Made by a program: the position numbers and the translations under genes. DNA of 15,013 bases from Myxococcales bacterium UBA5297. Its GTDB lineage: Bacteria > Myxococcota > Myxococcia > Myxococcales > UBA5297. Location: positions 11,177 through 26,189 of the forward strand of contig DHSB01000210.1 in assembly GCA_002408385.1 (NCBI GenBank), written 5' to 3'. The notes below the pieces were generated by a model. It saw only the letters and a program-made list of their open reading frames with translations. It was not told the origin of the DNA and did not search any database. How positions within the stretch are numbered: the stretch's first letter is position 1; every line of letters starts with the position of its first letter. Positions 3,682 to 12,858 of the stretch are shown one piece after another.

Positions 3682-6600
3682 CTACTGATCACACCGCCCG
3701 CGGTGGCGGCATTCGTGGACGTTGCGCGGCACCTCGACGGTGCCGAACTGGCGCATCATGTCGAAGGTCTCGATGCTCGCCGGAGGAGCCTCCATTCCCG
3801 GCGCCGGCGCTATCGAGGTCTTGTACTGACCGTAGGTGTTGACCTGGATGATCTCCTGCGGCGGAGGCGGGGGCACCAGCACTCGAGTCTGGCTGCGCTG
3901 GGTGGAATTGCCCGTCAGGCCGCAGTCAGGACCGCCGGTCGTCGCGTTGGCCTGGTACAGGAACGAGGCCGTCAGCGACTGGGCAATCATGCAGGCATCG
4001 CGCGACTCCTCGTAGCAGCCGCCGCCGACGCAGGACTCGCTGCATTCCTCCTTGGCGGTGCACGGCTCGGTCGGCTGCAGGGTGCTCCAGAGGACGCAGC
4101 CGTTGTAGATGGTGGTGTTGGTGGCCGTCGCCTCGTCGATGGCCGGATAGGCGAAGTACCAGCCCATGTCGGTCTCCGAGGCGAGCTCGGGAGGATTGGC
4201 CGCGAAGGGCTCGAGCTTGCGCAGATCGGTCTCGGTCAGCCGCGCCTTTTCGTATTCTATCGCCTCGTTCTCGGTGACGAAGGGCGCTGTGCGGAAGACC
4301 CTGAAGCCGAGGAAGCGGTTGAACCACCCGCTGTTGGCGTCGATCTCCTCCTGGGTCGTCGTCGCGGTCAGGCTACTCGCGATCGTCTCCCGGTCGGAGA
4401 CCGCCGCCACGCAGCCCATCGCCTCCCCCTCCCCGCCGGTGCACTGCAGCCCGCTCGCGAAGTAACTGGTCCCGGTGGAGGTGCCGATCGAGGCGACCGC
4501 GCCGACGCTGACCGGCTCGGCGTGGCTGGTGCAGGCATTGGCCGTCCCCATGTAGGTCAAGGCCTCCGAGCGCGTCATTGCGCCATCCGAGTCCAGGTTC
4601 CAGGTGACGCTGAAGGTGTCGGAGTCGTGAGAGTAGGGGGCCGATTTGACGGACGGGGTCAGGTTTCCTTGGTTGTCCGAGGTGAACTCGAGCACTCCGG
4701 TCTCGGCCTTGACGTTGAACCCCTGACGAGCACAGGCCAAGGGGTTGTCGATGGTACAGAGGCCGAGGGTCGGGTTCTTCAGGTTGAAGCGGTCGCCCGA
4801 GCCCAGGTAAGCCTGCAGCCCGCCGCTCTGCGGCATGCGGATGGCGGCGGCCATCGAGAAGAACGGCGGCCTGCTCAGGGCATTGCCCGCCTTGGCCTCC
4901 TCGAAACCCCGGGCGACGAACCAATTGGTCACGATTGGGACGTCTTTGGCATTGTAGGGGTTGGCCCCCAGCTCGCCCGGCACGTGGAAGCGGGCGACCC
5001 AGACTTGGCCGCCGAGGTCGCCGACGATGGCGGTGTCGAAGAAGCCTCCGTTGAAGTCCAGGTTCTGCGTCGTCTCGCTCGCGCCCCAGGCCACCAGGGC
5101 GGGCGTCGCGACGATCGGGTACTTCATCTCGGCGGTCGTGCCGGACTTCATCCTCGCCTCCCAGATCTTGTCTCCGGTGTAGGCGTCGATCATGTAGAGC
5201 TGGTTGCCACGGACGCGCGCCGGGTCGAAGCCGCCGGGCAGCATGACTATCCACCGCTCCTCGAAGCTCTTCTCGTCTTTCTTGAGCTTCACCGGGCCGA
5301 TCGGCGGCGCGCCGGGGAGGTAGTCGGCCCACGTCTCGCCCATCGTCAACTCTTCGGGGGTTCCGAGCTTGGGGAACATCCACAGGAAGGTTGGCTTGGT
5401 CGGGTCGGTCACGTCGAGGGCGCTGTAGCGGGTGCCGCCGCGCCGTTCGCCGAAGATGGCGACGGTGCGGTACTCGTCGCAGGCCTTCTTGCCGTCCTTG
5501 ACCTGGCTCTCGTCCACCATTCGCGCCGAGTCGGTCCAGATGTCGCGGATCATCGCGGTCGAGTCGATCATGTACGGGTGGACGTTGCCGACGATGAGCT
5601 GCGAGAGCCGGTGCAGCAGGTCGGGCGGCACGAAGGCCCAGAGCTCTTCGCCGTTCTTGCGGCCGGTCTGCGCGCAGATGTTCTCGGGGTCCTCGTCGTA
5701 GATGGCCAGGCCACTGACCGGGTCGACGTCCTTGAAGCACGAGTACTGGAAGGCGTGGACCATCCCGTCGTTGGCACCGATGAGGATGGCCGAGGGGCGC
5801 TTCTTCTGGAAGGTCTGGTAGTTGACGTACCTCTCGTAGGGATGCCCGGTCTTGTAGTTGCCGCAGGCGGTCTCCTCGTCGGCCTCGGTGGAGGTCGAGT
5901 AGAGAGCGCGCAGGCACTGGTTATGGAAGCCGCGCTCGCACAGCGGCATCCGGGCGACCGGCGGATCGACACGTACTGCGCTCGCGTGGAAGATGTCGCC
6001 GAGCACGAATTGGCGGTGGGGCATGATCAGCGGCGTGGCGGCGAGGTTGTAATTGGTCGGGTCGAGCGCTCCGGAGGAGTTCAAGACGTCGAGCCCGTGA
6101 ATGAAGCCGAGGATGATCCGCGCGCACGTCCGCTCGTCGACGTCGACCCCGATGCCTCCGCCGCGCAGCTTCTCCTGAATCTTCTGGCAGACCGCCGGCT
6201 GCCCGGCCTGGTTCTGATAGCCGAGCCCCAGATACGGGATGAGCTTGTCGAGATCGGCTTGGGCCATGTTCGGGGCGATCTCCAGCAGCCCTCCAGTCCC
6301 GTCGTTGGCGTCGATGGTGTCGTTGCTGTCGGTATCGATGGCGGTGTAGATGGTGCGGGTCATCGGCGTGCGCTGGGTGAGCACCTCCCCGGCCGCCCAG
6401 ACCGGCCTCGCCGGAATCGACGCGCCGCCCTCGGTCGTCTTGATGGCGAAGTAGTCGGTGTCCTCGTCCCAGAGGTTCAGGTTGGCCTTGACCATCGCCC
6501 CGTCGTTGGGATCGGTGGCGATGATGTCGCCGTCGGCGTCGACGATCCACAGGCCGTCGCAGAGCCCTTCGCGACAGACGCACAGCGGCTCTTCGATCAG

Positions 6601-9529
6601 TTGGCCCAGCTTGTCGCGCTTCTTGCCCGTCTCGGCGCAGTCGACCGCGAACTCGCTGAACATGTTGAACTTGTACAGCTCGCCCTGCCACATCGGGTCG
6701 CGCGAGGGGATGAACCGCGGCACGACGACGGCCGAGCCGGACTTGGTCTGCACGGTGCTCAGCGAGGGCGCAGAGACGCTCATCGCCCTGCGGCCCACCG
6801 TCTCGAGGACGTCGCGCAGCGCCTTTTCGAGCTGTTCGCCGTTGTAGGCGGTGAAGTAGGCGCCGCCTCCCTGCTGTGCGATCGACTTGAGCAACAGGTT
6901 GTCGGTGCCCAAGGCGATGACGAAAGTCTGCGCGGTCTGCGTGCCCGGCAATCCGGCCTCGGTGCGCAGGTCGTTGGAGTTGAGCATCGCCGCCACCGAG
7001 GCCGCCCAGCTATCCGAGCCGTCGGCGGTCTCCTTGCAGCCCTGGAAACCGGGCTTGCAGGCGCCGGTCGCCTCATCGATCGGGCTCAGCTCCTTGAGCG
7101 GGCTGAGCAGCTTTGGCACCTGGCCGTCGTCCTTGGGCATGCCGTCGGTGAGCAGGACGATCGCGCTCTTCTGGCAGGTGCTACAGACCGAGACCTTGTT
7201 GTTGTTGGAGCCTTCGACGTAGGTGTCGGTATTCAGCTTGTTGTCGGAGACGACCCAGGTGGACTCGAACTTCGTCATGTAGAACGAGCTCTCGTTCTGC
7301 AGCAGTTGCCCGGCGTTGTAGAGCGCTTCGGCAACCGGTTTGCTGGCGATGTCGAATTTGAATTTGCTCGTGTTGTTGATGTTGTTGACGTACTGGGGCG
7401 GCTCGTGGCCGGGGATCCTATTGCACTGGTTGGGCCAGAAGCCCGAGAGCAGCGGCTCGACCCGCTGGCGCGCTCCGCTGCTGCTCGGAGCGTCCGCGGT
7501 CCTGAGGACGCTGTAGCGCACCTTGGTCTGGGAGATGAGGGTCTTGCTCTTGGCAAAGATCCGGGCGAGCACGCACTTCGGCGGAAAGACGTTGAGGAAG
7601 CCGCCACTCCAGACGCGCTTGCCGTCGGGACTCAGGAAGTAGCCCTCGGTATCGAGGCAGGTCGTGCACTTGCCGTAGTCGGGGTGTCCGTCGCTGCCCA
7701 ACGAGCTCTTGCAGGCCGCCGCGGAGCCGTCGATCGGGGTACTCGCCTCTTCACAGCCCTCCTTGACCCCGACGTCTGCGCCCGTCCCCAGGTAGAACCT
7801 GTCCTTCTTGAATAGTTTAGGGAACGTTGCATCTGGAGGCTCGCGCGTCTGCAAGGCTTGAAGGCCGCCCGGGCCCACCAGCGCCTCGATGACCTCGCTG
7901 TTGCACCCGGGCTCGACCACCGCACAGCCAGGGTCCATCGGCAATTGACGCATCGACGCGCTGTTGTCGATGACGATGACCATCGACGGCTGGCTCGCTT
8001 CGAGGAAGAAGAAGGACTGGTCCTCGCCCCTCTGGTTGTCGATGGTGCTCTGCGCGAGCGAGGCCGAGGAGAGGCGGCAGGCCACGTCGTTGCTTCGCGA
8101 CAGCGCCACCTCCGGCAACGCCCCGCCAGGCAAGCTCGAAAGGCAGGCCGAGGGCGTGCAGGTGCCGTGGTAGCACGAGTAGCCGGCTGCACAGACGTTG
8201 CCGCAGACCCCGCAGTTGGTGTGGTCGGTTTGCAGGTCCACACAGAGGTTCGAGCAGAGCGCCAGGTCCGAGGAGGTCTCGGTCGCCTGGACCGTAAGCG
8301 AGGCGAGCCCCAGGTCGAGGTCGTTGCCGTGACTGCAGTGCTGGTCGTTGGTGAACCAGATGCCGACGTAGTACGTGCCCGCTTCCGGAACGGCGTAGGT
8401 GAGCGAGTAGTTGCCCAGCGTCTTACTGGCGACCAAGACCGTCCCCATCTCCTTCCTCTCCCCGGTCTGAGCGTCCGCTATCCAGAGGCCCGCGGTCGGA
8501 CCCATGCAACTGCGCGAGGAGCGGGCACGGATCGTAAATTTGTAGCTCCCGGGGCTCGGGAAATGGACCATGGTGACGAGAGAGCCGTCGGTGCGGCGAA
8601 ACCACGCCACCTCGTTGCCTGTGCCATAGATGCTGAGGTTGTAGTCGATACGCACGCACTCCGAGGGGATGTTTATGCAGTCGGCCTTCGTCAGGTCCTT
8701 CTTGCGCGCGAAGTCGCCATAGGGGCGATAGGTGTTGCTGACCCTCTTCGCCGAGAAGGTGCACCCCTGGCTTCCGCAAGCCGGCACCGAGCAAGTCGGG
8801 CAGAGCACCGCGCTGTCCTGCAGCTCCGCATTCCAGCCGATGTCCGAGTAGCACCGGTCGGAGTTGGGCGTCGAGGTGATGCTCTTCCCGCAGCACCCGG
8901 TTCCGCACGAGGTGGCCGTACAGACGCACCCGTAACCGGCTCCCACGGTTTGGCACACGGTGCCCTCCGGGCAGGCCGCCCCGCAGCCGCCGCAGTTCTT
9001 GCTGTCGTCCAGGGGCACGCAGACGTTCGAGCACTCCTGCTCGCCCGCAGCGCAGGGCACCTTGCACTCGGTGCCGCCGATGCAGCGGGCCGCATCCCCG
9101 CCCTCGCAGACCTGCGAGCTGTCGCAGGTCGTTCCGCAGGCCAAGGCCGTCCCCAGGCAGGCCTGCGTAGCATCCTCCAACGCGCAGCAGCGCGCCCCGG
9201 TACAACAGGACGAGCCGCACTGCTGCTCGCCGACCCCGCAGCAGACGCTCGGCGTGCCGGCCGTGTTGCAGACATTCGAGGCGCAATCGGTGTCGACTGC
9301 GCACGGCGCTTCGGCCGGCTTCCCACAGATACCCGAGGCAAGATCGCAGTACCCGTAAACGCAGCAACGGTCCAAGAAGTTGATGCAATCCAGGCCGTTC
9401 GCCCTCTTGTCCTTATCCTTGGGGCACGGATCCGCTGGTGGCTTGCCCGCCCAGCTCGCCGCGGGAAGCCCCCCCCAGGATCAGCGCCGCCCAAGCGGCC
9501 AGCGCCAGTGGCATGGGCATCCGTCTCAT
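3682..9529 (-). CDS. pilY1: PilY1-family pilus-tip adhesin, very large, start out of frame at a poly-G tract
   Basis: PilY1 proteins cap type IV pili and act in adhesion, mechanosensing and pilus priming. The open frame runs from TAG at 3682-3684 up to about 9468. Its only non-CTG start is TTG 9375, which has no ribosome site and would lack a signal peptide. ATG 9529 has AGGAGG four bases away (9534-9539) but is one base out of frame because of eight G at 9469-9476. With seven G the product is 1948 aa with signal peptide MRRMPMPLALAAW...ASWA. Domains, numbered from TTG 9375: cysteine-rich 1-205; Ca-dependent CBM-like 238-363; NCGVCGNVC cluster 374-411; vWA about 463-860 with MIDAS D470-x-S-x-S474 and TDG 743-745; EF-loop 1014-1025; propeller about 1115-1750 with GANDGMVHAF and VGDLGGQVW. 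Pseudomonas PilY1 is only about 1160 aa. It is last in the operon, 17 bp after pilX. Confidence 0.85.
6301..6336 (-). other. EF-hand-like calcium loop in the pilY1 product
   Basis: Residues 1014-1025 (counted from TTG 9375) read DTDSNDTIDAND. Acidic or polar ligands sit at loop positions 1, 3, 5, 7, 9 and 12, as in a canonical EF-hand/dockerin loop. It lies between the vWA domain and the propeller. Pseudomonas PilY1 binds calcium through an EF-like site, and this controls pilus retraction, so the loop is likely functional. Confidence 0.6.
8287..8664 (-). other. Putative Ca-dependent carbohydrate-binding (CBM36/60-like) module in the pilY1 product
   Basis: Residues about 238-363 form a self-contained beta-rich segment: YKFTIRARSS, then PTAGLWIADAQTG, NYSLTYAVPEAGTYYVGIWF and finally FTND...GNDLDLGLASLTV. 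The order 'TIRAR - W.D/A - Y.v..GT..V.i.FTND - (R/D)(N/D)L.(V/L)' is the pattern I know from calcium-dependent xylan-binding modules, where FTND lies next to the calcium and sugar site. This is recognition by eye, not a profile hit. Confidence 0.5.
9469..9476 (-). repeat. Poly-G (8) tract in pilY1 signal-peptide codons
   Basis: Eight consecutive C on the plus strand read as G8 in pilY1, within the codons for ...LILGG. With G8, translation from ATG 9529 gives a 38-residue peptide ending at TAA 9413-9415. With G7, the frame joins the whole PilY1 frame. The other frame upstream is closed by a TGA just before the tract, so no in-frame upstream start exists. Homopolymers of this kind are mutable by slippage and also error-prone in sequencing. 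Confidence 0.85.
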
Positions 9530-9546
9530 GCGACCTCCTCGTGCGG

Positions 9547-10041
9547 CTAGAAGCCAAACTGCAGGGTGAATTCGAGCTCGTAGCGCCGACCGCTCGGGTC
9601 CTGGCAGACGATCACGTATTGGGTCGGCTGCGTCGCGCCCCCGCCGGACATCTTGTTGGCGATGTCCTCGGGCCCGCGCGAGGCGCCGGCCTGCTCGATG
9701 GGCTTAAACTCCATCGTCACCTCGGGCAGCGCGGCCGAGTCGTAGTGGCCGGTGGCGACGAGAAGGTCGCCGTCGGTGCCCGCGAGCTGCGCGTGGATGG
9801 TGTTGGGCATCTGGCTGCCGTAGCGAAACTGCGACAGCAGCAGGTTCTTGCCGCCGCGCGCGCAGGCGACGAGCACGTCGGCGTTCTTCTTCGACTGCGC
9901 CGAGCCGAGCTCGAGCCCCGAGAGCGTCATCGCCCCGCCGGCGAGCAGGGCGAGCAGCAAGAGCACGATCATCACCACCAGCAGGGTGCTGCCGCGCGGC
10001 GCCCGGCCGGCCTGGTGCCCATCCATCGAAACCTCTCCCAT
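9547..10041 (-). CDS. pilX: PilX-like minor pilin
   Basis: The protein is 164 aa. The N terminus reads RAPRGSTLLVVMIVLLLLAL, the PilX_N layout of basic residues, Gly and a long hydrophobic helix (about residues 18-42). As often in PilX, the Glu5 of ordinary pilins is absent. The C-terminal part is a small globular domain with ...GRRYELEFTLQFGF at the end. PilX joins the minor-pilin complex that primes pilus assembly and presents PilY1. Two starts are possible. ATG 10041 has GGAGG six bases upstream and is used here. ATG 10026 (MDGHQAG) has GAGAGG five bases upstream and would remove five residues. It lies 24 bp after pilW and 17 bp before pilY1. Confidence 0.8.
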   Translation of the reverse strand: MGEVSMDGHQAGRAPRGSTLLVVMIVLLLLALLAGGAMTLSGLELGSAQSKKNADVLVACARGGKNLLLSQFRYGSQMPNTIHAQLAGTDGDLLVATGHYDSAALPEVTMEFKPIEQAGASRGPEDIANKMSGGGATQPTQYVIVCQDPSGRRYELEFTLQFGF

Positions 10042-10065: not shown

Positions 10066-11424
10066 CTAGAACATGAAGTGCCCGCTCGTCTGCAGGTTCG
10101 GAATGTTGACGGTGGTCTGGACCACCTCGTAGCCGTAGCGCTCGCGCAGATCGGTCGTCGTCGGCAGGAACGGCTTGTAGCCCTCCGGCACGGCCGACAG
10201 CCCGAAGCCCTCGCGGTTCTCGAACCAGGCGTCGGGACCGGGCGGGAACAGCCTGGTTCTCGGTCCGTCGGGCATCGGCGTCGAGGTACGGGCGATGAGG
10301 GTGATGCGCACCGCGCGGGTGTTTCCCGGATGGGTCAATTGGCGAAGCCTGTGCTGCCGCCCCCCGAAGAGCCGGGGCATGTCGAAGCGCCCGAACGGCT
10401 GCGCCGTCTGCAGCTCCTGGGGGAAAGGCGACTCTATCGTCACCATGCCGATCGCCTCCAATGAGGCCTTGAGCGGCTCGCGAGCGACCTCCGCGGTCAG
10501 CTCGACCCCGCCCTCGGTCTCGCCGTGCACCGTGCCGTTGTTCAGCATGTAGGCGACCTGCAGGTCGATGATGTCCGGGGCGATCGGAATCAGGTCGGCC
10601 TCGTCGATAGTGCCGTCGAGGTTGCGGTCGGTCCCGGTATCGAGGACCAGGTAGGTTCGCGGCAGGCCGGTGGTGTTCCTCGCCTCGTCGGGGAGCCTGG
10701 AATCGCTGTCGGAGAAGATGAAGAAGTGCGACCGGTTCACCTTGTAGGCGATCGCCGTCCCGGCGCTCAGGCAGGTCGCAGCGGTCGCGCCGTTCTGCCG
10801 ATAGGGCGTCCCGTCCGCGGCGGCCAACGCCACCTGCTGCGGCCCCTCAGCCTCGGCCTGGACGCTCGCGCCGACGGTCACGTAGGTGTAGATGGCGCCC
10901 TGGGGACACAACAGATGAAGCACTTGGCCCATCGGCAAAGAGTCGCCGGCGCGCATCTGCAGCTCCAGCGCGCCGGCCGCGGCGGTTTTTATCACCCAGG
11001 CGTCGCCGAGCACGTTCGCCAGAGCGACCGTGGTGCCGACCTGGTAGTTCGTGCTGCGGCTCATCACCACCAACTCGTCGGGCGCGTCCTTGGAGTCGCG
11101 CACCGGGTTTGCTTCATTACAGCCGGCGCTCCCATAGACGAGGTTCGTTCCCGTGGGCGTCTGGCAGCGGTAGAAGTCGAAGTCGAAGGCGAACTGGGGG
11201 TCGACGCCGAAGCCCGCCTGGCGGACCGTGCGCTCGAGGTAGTCGAGCGCAAACCGCGCGCTGCTCTGCCGCTCGCGCAGCCGACGCCCGTTGCTGAAGC
11301 TCTTGCTCTGCGAGACCGAGATCCCCGCCACAGCCACGAGCACGATCGAGCCGACGGCCAGGCCGACCATCAGCTCCATCAAAGTCATGCCCTTGGCGGG
11401 CATCGCGCCCAAGCCTCGCCTCAT
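10066..11424 (-). CDS. pilW: PilW-like minor pilin
   Basis: The protein is 452 aa, starting MRRGLGAMPAKG. Prepilin peptidase (PilD) should cut after Gly12, leaving M1-T-L-M-E5 followed by a hydrophobic helix (MVGLAVGSIVLVAVAGI). Glu5 (Glu17 of the precursor) is present. The globular part is longer than in Pseudomonas PilW. It contains an EF-hand-like loop, DRNLDGTIDEAD, at 266-277. The ATG is seven bases after GGAGG (11432-11436), which itself overlaps the end of pilV. Only 3 bp separate the pilV stop from this start, suggesting translational coupling. It is a periplasmic/inner-membrane pilin subunit incorporated at the pilus tip. Confidence 0.82.
   Translation of the reverse strand: MRRGLGAMPAKGMTLMELMVGLAVGSIVLVAVAGISVSQSKSFSNGRRLRERQSSARFALDYLERTVRQAGFGVDPQFAFDFDFYRCQTPTGTNLVYGSAGCNEANPVRDSKDAPDELVVMSRSTNYQVGTTVALANVLGDAWVIKTAAAGALELQMRAGDSLPMGQVLHLLCPQGAIYTYVTVGASVQAEAEGPQQVALAAADGTPYRQNGATAATCLSAGTAIAYKVNRSHFFIFSDSDSRLPDEARNTTGLPRTYLVLDTGTDRNLDGTIDEADLIPIAPDIIDLQVAYMLNNGTVHGETEGGVELTAEVAREPLKASLEAIGMVTIESPFPQELQTAQPFGRFDMPRLFGGRQHRLRQLTHPGNTRAVRITLIARTSTPMPDGPRTRLFPPGPDAWFENREGFGLSAVPEGYKPFLPTTTDLRERYGYEVVQTTVNIPNLQTSGHFMF
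10594..10629 (-). other. EF-hand-like calcium loop in the pilW product
   Basis: PilW residues 266-277, DRNLDGTIDEAD, place D, N, D, T, D and D at loop positions 1, 3, 5, 7, 9 and 12. This is a textbook calcium-loop pattern. It follows VLDTGT and precedes a hydrophobic segment, so it is probably in the globular pilin head. Confidence 0.6.
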
Positions 11425-11427
11425 GCG

Positions 11428-12018
11428 TCAACCTCCCATGTTGGACGGGTCGAAGACCGCGGTCTGGGCGCCGACCCGATACCATCGGCCCCCCTGGTGG
11501 AAGCGCACGATCACGCCGATCCGCTTCACCGTCGGGGTCGCCGCCCCGCAGTCGAACTGCCAGGTGGCGCTCAGGGCGCAGTCGGCGACGTTCCAATAGA
11601 CCGCGAAATCCGGGTCGCCGTCGCCGTTGTAGTCGAGGGTGTCGCTCGCCGCGAAGCCGGCCAGGGGTTGCAGCGCGTTCGCGTTGACGGCCGTGGTCAC
11701 CCCGGGGACCTGAAGCTGATGGTCGGCGACGGCGGTCACGGTCTCCTTCCCGAACAGCCCCTCGGTGTCGGCGATGTCGGCGTCGTTCGGGTCGAGCGTG
11801 TCGGCGAGCCGCGGGTCGTTCCAGTCGAGCAGCTCGAGGCTGTGCAGGACGCGCTGCGCGAGCGCGCTCGCCTGCGAGACCCTTAGCCCCTGACCGTCGG
11901 CGCGCCTGGCGGCGATCTCGGCGCCCATCAGACCGAGCAGCCCGACCGTAATCAGCGCCATCGAGACCAGGGCCTCGATGAGGGTCGATCCATTCTGCCG
12001 GTGCGCAACTGCTGTCAT
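11428..12018 (-). CDS. pilV: PilV-like minor pilin
   Basis: The protein is 196 aa. MTAVAHRQNG is followed by the mature start STLIEALVSMALITVGLLGL, with Gly-1 and Glu5 and the IEALVS motif typical of PilV. The head domain contains DYNGDGDPD (129-137), a calcium-type Asp/Asn loop, and two cysteines (147 and 157) that could form a disulfide. ATG 12018 is preceded by GGAGG six bases upstream. It is 14 bp after fimT and 3 bp before pilW. With FimT, PilW and PilX it should form the priming complex under PilY1. Confidence 0.82.
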   Translation of the reverse strand: MTAVAHRQNGSTLIEALVSMALITVGLLGLMGAEIAARRADGQGLRVSQASALAQRVLHSLELLDWNDPRLADTLDPNDADIADTEGLFGKETVTAVADHQLQVPGVTTAVNANALQPLAGFAASDTLDYNGDGDPDFAVYWNVADCALSATWQFDCGAATPTVKRIGVIVRFHQGGRWYRVGAQTAVFDPSNMGG

Positions 12019-12032
12019 GGGCGAGCCTCCGC

Positions 12033-12680
12033 TCAGTACAAGAAAACCCGGACGAGGCCCGAGGGCGCGAGCACGCCCACGGCGCCCGTCCGCGTCTCCG
12101 CGGAATCGATGAGCGACCTGGCATAGACGAAGCCTCCGCCCAGGTTGTTGGCGGCTGGTATCTGGACTTCGCCGTCAGGCTGGATGCGGAGCCCCCCGCG
12201 CATCGCGGTGCCGACTTTCGTACAGAAGGTGCAGCCGAGGGCGTCGGTCGGCAGCGAGCCGTAGACGCCCTGGAACGGGAAGGGCATCGGGATCGCGATG
12301 TTCGGCAGCCCGGCGGTCACCAGCGTCGAGTTAAACCGGCGCCGCTCCAGGTGGACGATCTCCGCGTTTTCCTCGGGCGGATAGACCGCGACGGGGTTCA
12401 GAGCTATCCGCGCGTTTCCAGTCTCTACAAAGAGCCGATACTCGACCTCGCCCGGCGTCGCATTCAAGACGAGGACGACCGGAGCGCCTCGGCGGGCCGC
12501 GACCCAGCGGGCGTTCTCGATGTCGGCGCCGAGAGTACCGAGGAAGTTGTTTACGTCCGCTCTTCGCGTCGAGTCGCTGAGGTTGACTGCCGCCAAGCCG
12601 GCGATGATTCCGAGGATCGCCACCACGACCATAAGCTCGAGCAGGGTCATGCCACGGTCGGATTTCTGATACACGGACAT
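12033..12680 (-). CDS. FimT/GspH-type minor pilin (FimU-like)
   Basis: The protein is 215 aa. MSVYQKSDRG precedes the cleavage site, then MTLLELMVVVAILGIIAGLA with Glu5 and the classical type IV pilin helix. The head reads ADIENARWVAARRGAPVVLVL, matching the GspH/FimT fold, in which an N-terminal helix leads into beta strands. The frame is open to 12770, but the leader peptide fixes the start at ATG 12680, which has GAGGAG about seven bases upstream. It is the first gene of the operon, as fimU is in the Pseudomonas fimU-pilVWXY1 cluster. FimT homologues in some bacteria also bind DNA for uptake; nothing here decides that. Confidence 0.82.
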   Translation of the reverse strand: MSVYQKSDRGMTLLELMVVVAILGIIAGLAAVNLSDSTRRADVNNFLGTLGADIENARWVAARRGAPVVLVLNATPGEVEYRLFVETGNARIALNPVAVYPPEENAEIVHLERRRFNSTLVTAGLPNIAIPMPFPFQGVYGSLPTDALGCTFCTKVGTAMRGGLRIQPDGEVQIPAANNLGGGFVYARSLIDSAETRTGAVGVLAPSGLVRVFLY

Positions 12681-12705
12681 CGGGACACTCCTCAGCATGA
12701 GCACA

Positions 12706-12711
12706 ACTATA
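12706..12711 (-). promoter_or_regulatory. Possible -10 box of the pilus operon
   Basis: On the minus strand TATAGT (in CCGATATAGTTGTGC) stands 25 bp before the fimT start codon, giving a leader of about 20 bases that just includes the GAGGAG ribosome site. No good -35 is present at 16-18 bp (about CGGCGT), so an activator may be needed or the call may be wrong. Confidence 0.35.
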
Positions 12712-12858
12712 TCGGAAAAGGGAGGGGAACGCCGCTTTCCGGGCCACTTCGGCGGGAATACCGACCCCAACTCGATCTAATAAGCGGGATCCCGAGCCAT
12801 CCGGCGCCCTCGGGCTCGCTCGCCCGGAGTCGCCTAGGAGCCGCTCGTTCGAGGGGCG

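Follow-up and report, generated by a model that had tools for sequence, protein, structure and literature searches.

Is a run of eight G among the codons for the signal peptide of a pilY1-like gene a phase-variation switch, the outcome of a single slip in replication, or an error in the assembled sequence? The question arises from a 15,013-nucleotide stretch of DNA from Myxococcales bacterium UBA5297 (contig DHSB01000210.1, positions 11,177 to 26,189), hereafter the window. The initial annotation of the locus had proposed a switch like that of Neisseria PilC1 and PilC2, which phase-vary through poly-G in their signal-peptide codons (PMC13190605, crediting Jonsson et al. 1991). The PilC-type feature itself, a G tract in signal-peptide codons at which a change of length breaks the frame, is present here. 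We therefore consider below what the tract separates, whether an in-frame version of the gene exists, how far runs of this kind can be trusted in the assembly, and how unusual the tract is in this genome and among its relatives.

A G tract divides a signal peptide from a long open frame

Positions 9469–9476 of the plus strand read as eight C, that is, eight G on the minus strand (9476–9469), and form the sole G/C run of at least 7 within the window. The window holds no N, and the tract has no gap nearby. On the minus strand, an ATG at 9529–9527, 17 bases past the stop of the preceding gene, opens a frame of 38 codons in which hydrophobic codons lead into the eight G and a stop follows at 9415–9413. 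The other frame is closed on its 5' side by a TGA at 9483–9481 and then runs without a stop from 9477 for 1,931 codons, ending at the stop at 3684–3682; its first listed start is a TTG at 9375. The sequence confirms the early part of the initial annotation, in which a ribosome site and ATG 9529 lead through the eight G to a stop after 38 codons. As assembled, the window's copy would be expected to yield no exported PilY1. The remainder of the long frame contains no stop across its 1,931 codons, so the frame break would be either recent or held in check.

Table 1. Features at and upstream of the G tract, in window coordinates.
Feature	Position	Strand	Basis
PilY1-like long open frame (1,931 codons from 9477, then stop)	3682..9480	-	frame reading and domain/motif matches
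38-codon frame from ATG 9529 through the signal-peptide codons to an early stop	9413..9529	-	sequence
Run of eight G, where the ATG 9529 frame and the long frame diverge	9469..9476	-	sequence
GAGGAGG, ribosome-binding-like, upstream of ATG 9529	9534..9540	-	by eye
Gene at the pilX position; hydrophobic stretch close to the start, without a match in Pfam or NCBIfam	9547..10041	-	pilX from position
Minor-pilin-like gene (N_methyl), pilW position	10066..11424	-	pilW from position
Minor-pilin-like gene (N_methyl; TIGR02523 PilV weak, under cut-off)	11428..12018	-	profile match
Minor-pilin-like gene (N_methyl; GspH weak, under cut-off), fimU position	12033..12770	-	fimU from position

The long frame encodes a PilY1-like protein next to minor pilins

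Three of the four genes directly upstream, all on the same strand, match PF07963 (N_methyl) above its cut-off, placing a minor-pilin cluster beside the PilY1-like gene (Table 1). The true start of the most distant of the four probably falls inside its listed open frame.

The long frame has a Cys-rich N-terminal part with a STIG1 match just above threshold (24.7 bits, cut-off 24.1), and a pattern search in P0003, a database protein described below, found DNSAS, a MIDAS-type motif, and DTDSNDTID, which resembles a calcium loop. Its match to the PilY1 beta-propeller PF05567 is weak, at 21.8 bits under the Pfam cut-off of 28.1. However, two proteins of the same genome, encoded on contigs C88 and C156, are 35–37% identical to the long frame over 772–999 residues and exceed that cut-off (34.1 and 30.2 bits). 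The best match in the PDB is the P. aeruginosa PilY1 structure 3hx6, again weak (E 0.04). Given the adjoining minor-pilin cluster, PilY1 is the best name for the predicted product, with the propeller score alone lying below its cut-off. The full genes on C88 and C156 are in frame and begin with hydrophobic signal sequences; these two other pilY1-like genes with normal starts may still serve pili. With the domain matches, the minor pilins and the loss of frame at the tract taken together, the proposal of a PilY1-like gene that follows a minor-pilin cluster and is broken inside its signal peptide is supported.

Further pieces of pilY1-like sequence lie elsewhere in the genome. On contig C54, positions 9326–9922 resemble about the last 199 residues of the window's PilY1 and stand behind unrelated sequence; the piece is 78% identical to it in protein and 84% identical in DNA over 546 bases, and is either a pilY1 remnant or a silent 3' piece. 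Contig C213 (39–297) carries short fragments of another pilY1-like sequence at its end.

An in-frame counterpart in another assembly

We searched 5.8 billion proteins, from which 7,768 candidates were picked by words from the first 500 residues, and obtained 11 matches at E of at most 0.001, two of them close (P0003 and P0004). P0003 has 1,948 amino acids and the N-terminus MRRMPMPLALAAWAALILGGLPAASWAGK, and is in frame with what by eye is a complete signal peptide. Setting aside the first residue of the window's translation, which falls in the tract, it differs from the window's long frame only at residues 548 and 1306. Its cluster has five members on two contigs, the longest of 8,591 bases; we count these as contigs other than the window's, which has 26,189 bases. 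P0003 thereby matches the prediction that removing one G would give a frame of 1948 codons with an ASWA cleavage site. At the protein level, P0003 shows the same gene in frame in at least one other assembly, seemingly of the same species; its tract is read back from the protein. It may come from another strain, or from another assembly of related material.

P0004, labelled by NCBI as a 'Myxococcales bacterium' MAG, has 1,949 amino acids, is 77% identical, and is likewise in frame with a signal peptide as judged by eye. It carries Gly-Ser where P0003 carries Gly-Gly, and therefore cannot hold an unbroken run of 7–8 G there. Both proteins start upstream of TTG 9375 and in frame, which rules out that codon as the true start; a start there would omit the signal peptide.

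The two proteins also bear on whether the break might be bypassed, by +1 ribosomal frameshifting or by RNA polymerase slippage on the G run, to give a low and steady supply of PilY1. A +1 shift on consecutive GGG codons would join the two frames, and glycine codons can be read as four bases. However, P0003 and P0004 are in frame from their starts, so that bypass is not the norm for this gene, and no further signal for frameshifting was seen in the sequence. We consider this explanation very improbable.

At the DNA level, a pattern across the tract had no match in named genomes, a set from which the records nearest the window's genome may be missing, and no related locus in named genomes was confirmed. 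Four genomes of the same family gave no match to the PilY1-like gene, and the relatives compared included none of the same genus. The best-scoring match beyond the window's own genome was 36–37% identical, in comparisons over 60 and 145 genomes with its own included.

The assembly seldom breaks frames at homopolymers

An in-frame version in the databases is also what would be expected if the organism's gene were in frame like P0003 and the eighth G were a sequencing or assembly error. The genome is a draft of 7.65 Mb in 255 contigs, and the sample analysed here covers 1,708,209 bases (22%) with 153 runs of N. For each homopolymer of at least 5, we asked whether the coding frame was the same on both sides.

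Among 91 G/C runs of at least 7, 10 were intact, one was shifted and 80, including the pilY1 tract, were not scorable. G/C runs of 6 gave 59 intact and two shifted (245 tested, 184 not scorable), and those of 5 gave 761 intact, 14 shifted and 15 other (2,020 tested, 1,230 not scorable). A/T runs of at least 5 were intact in 60 cases, shifted in two and other in two (262 tested, 198 not scorable), and 6,000 random places yielded 2,925 intact, 33 shifted, 44 other and 2,998 not scorable. Shifts thus made up 1.1% of the scorable random places, compared with 1.8% of scorable G/C runs of 5, 3.3% of those of 6 and 1/11 of those of at least 7. This rise with run length runs against reading the tract as a slippage allele, on small numbers. 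The single shifted run of at least 7 (L175) looks like a gene junction, with one gene's end and the next one's start. Similarly, at 16 of the 19 shifts at runs of at least 5 the upstream frame ends before the run or no more than 50 nt after it, as at gene junctions; of the remaining three, two are at C runs on contig C54 and one is at L136.

We conclude that the assembly seldom breaks frames at runs; by our estimate, ten cases at lengths of at least 7 would still be compatible with errors at as many as about a quarter of such runs. Its runs are nevertheless not all trustworthy, given the draft state, the 153 N runs and the position of the longest G/C runs: all seven of at least 12, 11 of 13 of at least 10 and 17 of 44 of at least 8 are found no more than 60 bases from a gap or from the end of a fragment. 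Long C runs stand beside N runs at two loci, on C5 (10064–10092) and on C81 (near 3889–3896), and look like assembly artefacts. At the first, the protein sequence preceding the gap repeats beyond it, like overlapping ends left apart.

For the pilY1 tract, error is suggested by the existence of P0003, by the fragmented draft with long G/C runs, some of which adjoin broken sequence, and by the two apparent frame breaks at C runs on C54. Against it, none of the 10 scorable coding G/C runs of at least 7 outside junctions was broken, few of the shorter ones were, and the tract is not near a gap. The initial annotation had named a sequence error as the main alternative; the frame test, with 10 of 11 scorable runs intact, makes it less likely and leaves it a rival. 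We regard it as a somewhat doubtful but serious explanation.

Long tracts are rare in the genome and not kept in relatives

A selected switch, in which PilY1 is toggled by slippage at the G tract in the manner of Neisseria PilC, would be more credible if such tracts were kept at this locus or formed a set in the genome. We therefore counted runs in 943 predicted genes from the 1,708,209 bases, a set from which broken genes are absent and whose run counts are biased down for that reason. Within the first 100 bases of these genes, four G/C runs of 7 and none of at least 8 were found, with about 22 expected. Across coding sequence, G/C runs of at least 7 were about tenfold rarer than expected from codon usage (20 versus about 211). 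Extrapolating from the sampled rate, we estimate that tens of genes across the 7.65 Mb genome would carry a run of 7 close to their starts. In the sample as a whole, runs of 7 and 8 were rarer than a first-order expectation and runs of at least 12 commoner. We considered the long G/C runs of the genome as many switches and rejected the idea: lengths 7–8 are underrepresented, and all seven runs of at least 12 are at gaps or ends. The pilY1 tract is unusual for a named gene. One further run, ten G on the minus strand of contig C30 (12075–12084), keeps the frame; it lies 43 codons inside a gene whose first part, we presume, resembles a membrane-anchored folding helper (PpiD-like).

We then examined the pilY1 starts of 24 more distant loci. 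They were assigned by a simple rule based on hydrophobicity, which may have placed some wrongly. Sixteen came from a first set and eight from a second, with 13 of 31 and 3 of 17 loci left out where they extend past the fetched DNA. The second set comprised 19 loci (L184–L202) minus the window itself (L184) and L185, which is the same as L005 of the first; L198 gave no start, and five of the 13 starts were repeats, counted once. The own-genome gene on C156 yielded no start in the first set, though one was read for it separately. Only one of the 24 has a G/C run of at least 7; the other 23 do not, and the tract is not kept in relatives. The exception (genome G011, locus L005 on contig C127) is a pilY1-like gene whose signal-peptide codons include eight C without loss of frame. 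Base composition may account for it: overlapping matches to eight G or C number 155 in G011, against 11, 50 and 41 in three other relatives. In the G011 gene, too, a single slip would be enough to silence a pilY1.

P0004 and these 23 starts count against a dedicated switch. By the initial annotation, the switch would be refuted by relatives whose sequence at this place is non-repetitive and whose frame is fixed; P0004 is such a relative at the protein level, and it speaks against an old, conserved switch and leaves a recent one unaffected.

How far, then, might a selected switch be credited? The tract's position in the signal-peptide codons of a pilus-tip adhesin is that of the PilC1/PilC2 tracts (PMC13190605), both frames are seen across two assemblies, and a tract retained in a genome that avoids coding runs of at least 7 is unusual. 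Short tracts can vary: C6 in Bordetella pertussis bvgS is called phase-variable (PMC1891110), and in Campylobacter, where scans use a cut-off of at least 7, tracts of eight or more G mediate switches (PMC6321876). Deep sequencing of N. meningitidis found homopolymers of at least 8 to be mostly variable (PMC5084427). A switch would thus be possible at a length of eight G, which exceeds the Campylobacter cut-off. However, it falls under the cut-off of at least 9 G used in Neisseria scans and under the pilC range of 9–20 (PMC5953494). Also against a switch are the tract-free P0004, the single run among 24 starts, the absence of any sign of a wider group of similar loci (no run of at least 8 within the first 100 bases of any of the 943 predicted genes) and the presence of mismatch repair genes, MutS1 at 992 bits and MutL at 515 bits over one frame. 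What also stands of the PilC-like proposal is the in-frame version in another assembly; no result shows reversible switching. A selected switch is, in our judgement, unlikely. Equally improbable is that a PilC-like switch was independently reinvented here, with one of several pilus tips toggled in a bacterium that is probably free-living and possesses mismatch repair genes.

A one-base slippage allele as the favoured reading

We favour, tentatively and as something near an even call, a one-base slippage allele of a gene that is normally in frame; assembly error follows close behind. The myxobacterial PilY1-like gene has a G-rich stretch in its signal-peptide codons, with eight G and a frame lost after 38 codons in the DNA assembled here. 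Under this proposal, a single replication-slippage event at a short G run would have caused the loss, so that strains, or members of the sampled population, would differ in frame. The same slippage could restore the frame; frequent or selected reversal is not part of the proposal.

What is new here is P0003, the in-frame counterpart for a gene broken in the window. If both tract lengths recur in nature, the locus would be a convergent case, outside Neisseria, of a pilus-tip adhesin that is switched on and off, and would link myxobacterial PilY1 diversity to bet-hedging. A single frame mutation or an assembly slip would carry only a caution: automated gene calling at this locus would leave out the export signal.

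Comparison with known systems

Colony phase variation is known in M. xanthus; the text of PMC3986340 contains none of 'pilY', 'slipped' or 'homopolymer'. A literature search on pilY1, phase variation and homopolymeric tracts, over titles and the starts of abstracts, found no such tract reported for myxobacterial pilY1. In the passages found of a 2026 survey of myxobacterial PilY1 (PMC13190605), 'phase vari' occurs in the account of Neisseria and in a reference title, and no frame break in a pilY1 signal peptide is described.

Like Neisseria PilC1/PilC2, the locus combines a PilY1-type tip protein with a G tract in signal-peptide codons, where a change of one base breaks the frame. Unlike PilC, with its tracts of 9–20 and reported switching, it has eight G and a frame break read from sequence alone; it also has a 77% identical relative without the tract, in a setting where mismatch repair genes are present. 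It resembles C6 of B. pertussis bvgS as a short G/C run that can change length in a GC-rich genome (PMC1891110), although that is another gene in another organism, with lengths measured in a strain collection (PMC1891110), whereas here one length comes from DNA and the other from a protein. In gene content it is like the surveyed myxobacterial PilY1 (PMC13190605): several pilY1 copies per genome, each adjoining minor pilins, and long Cys-rich forms whose N-terminal parts differ.
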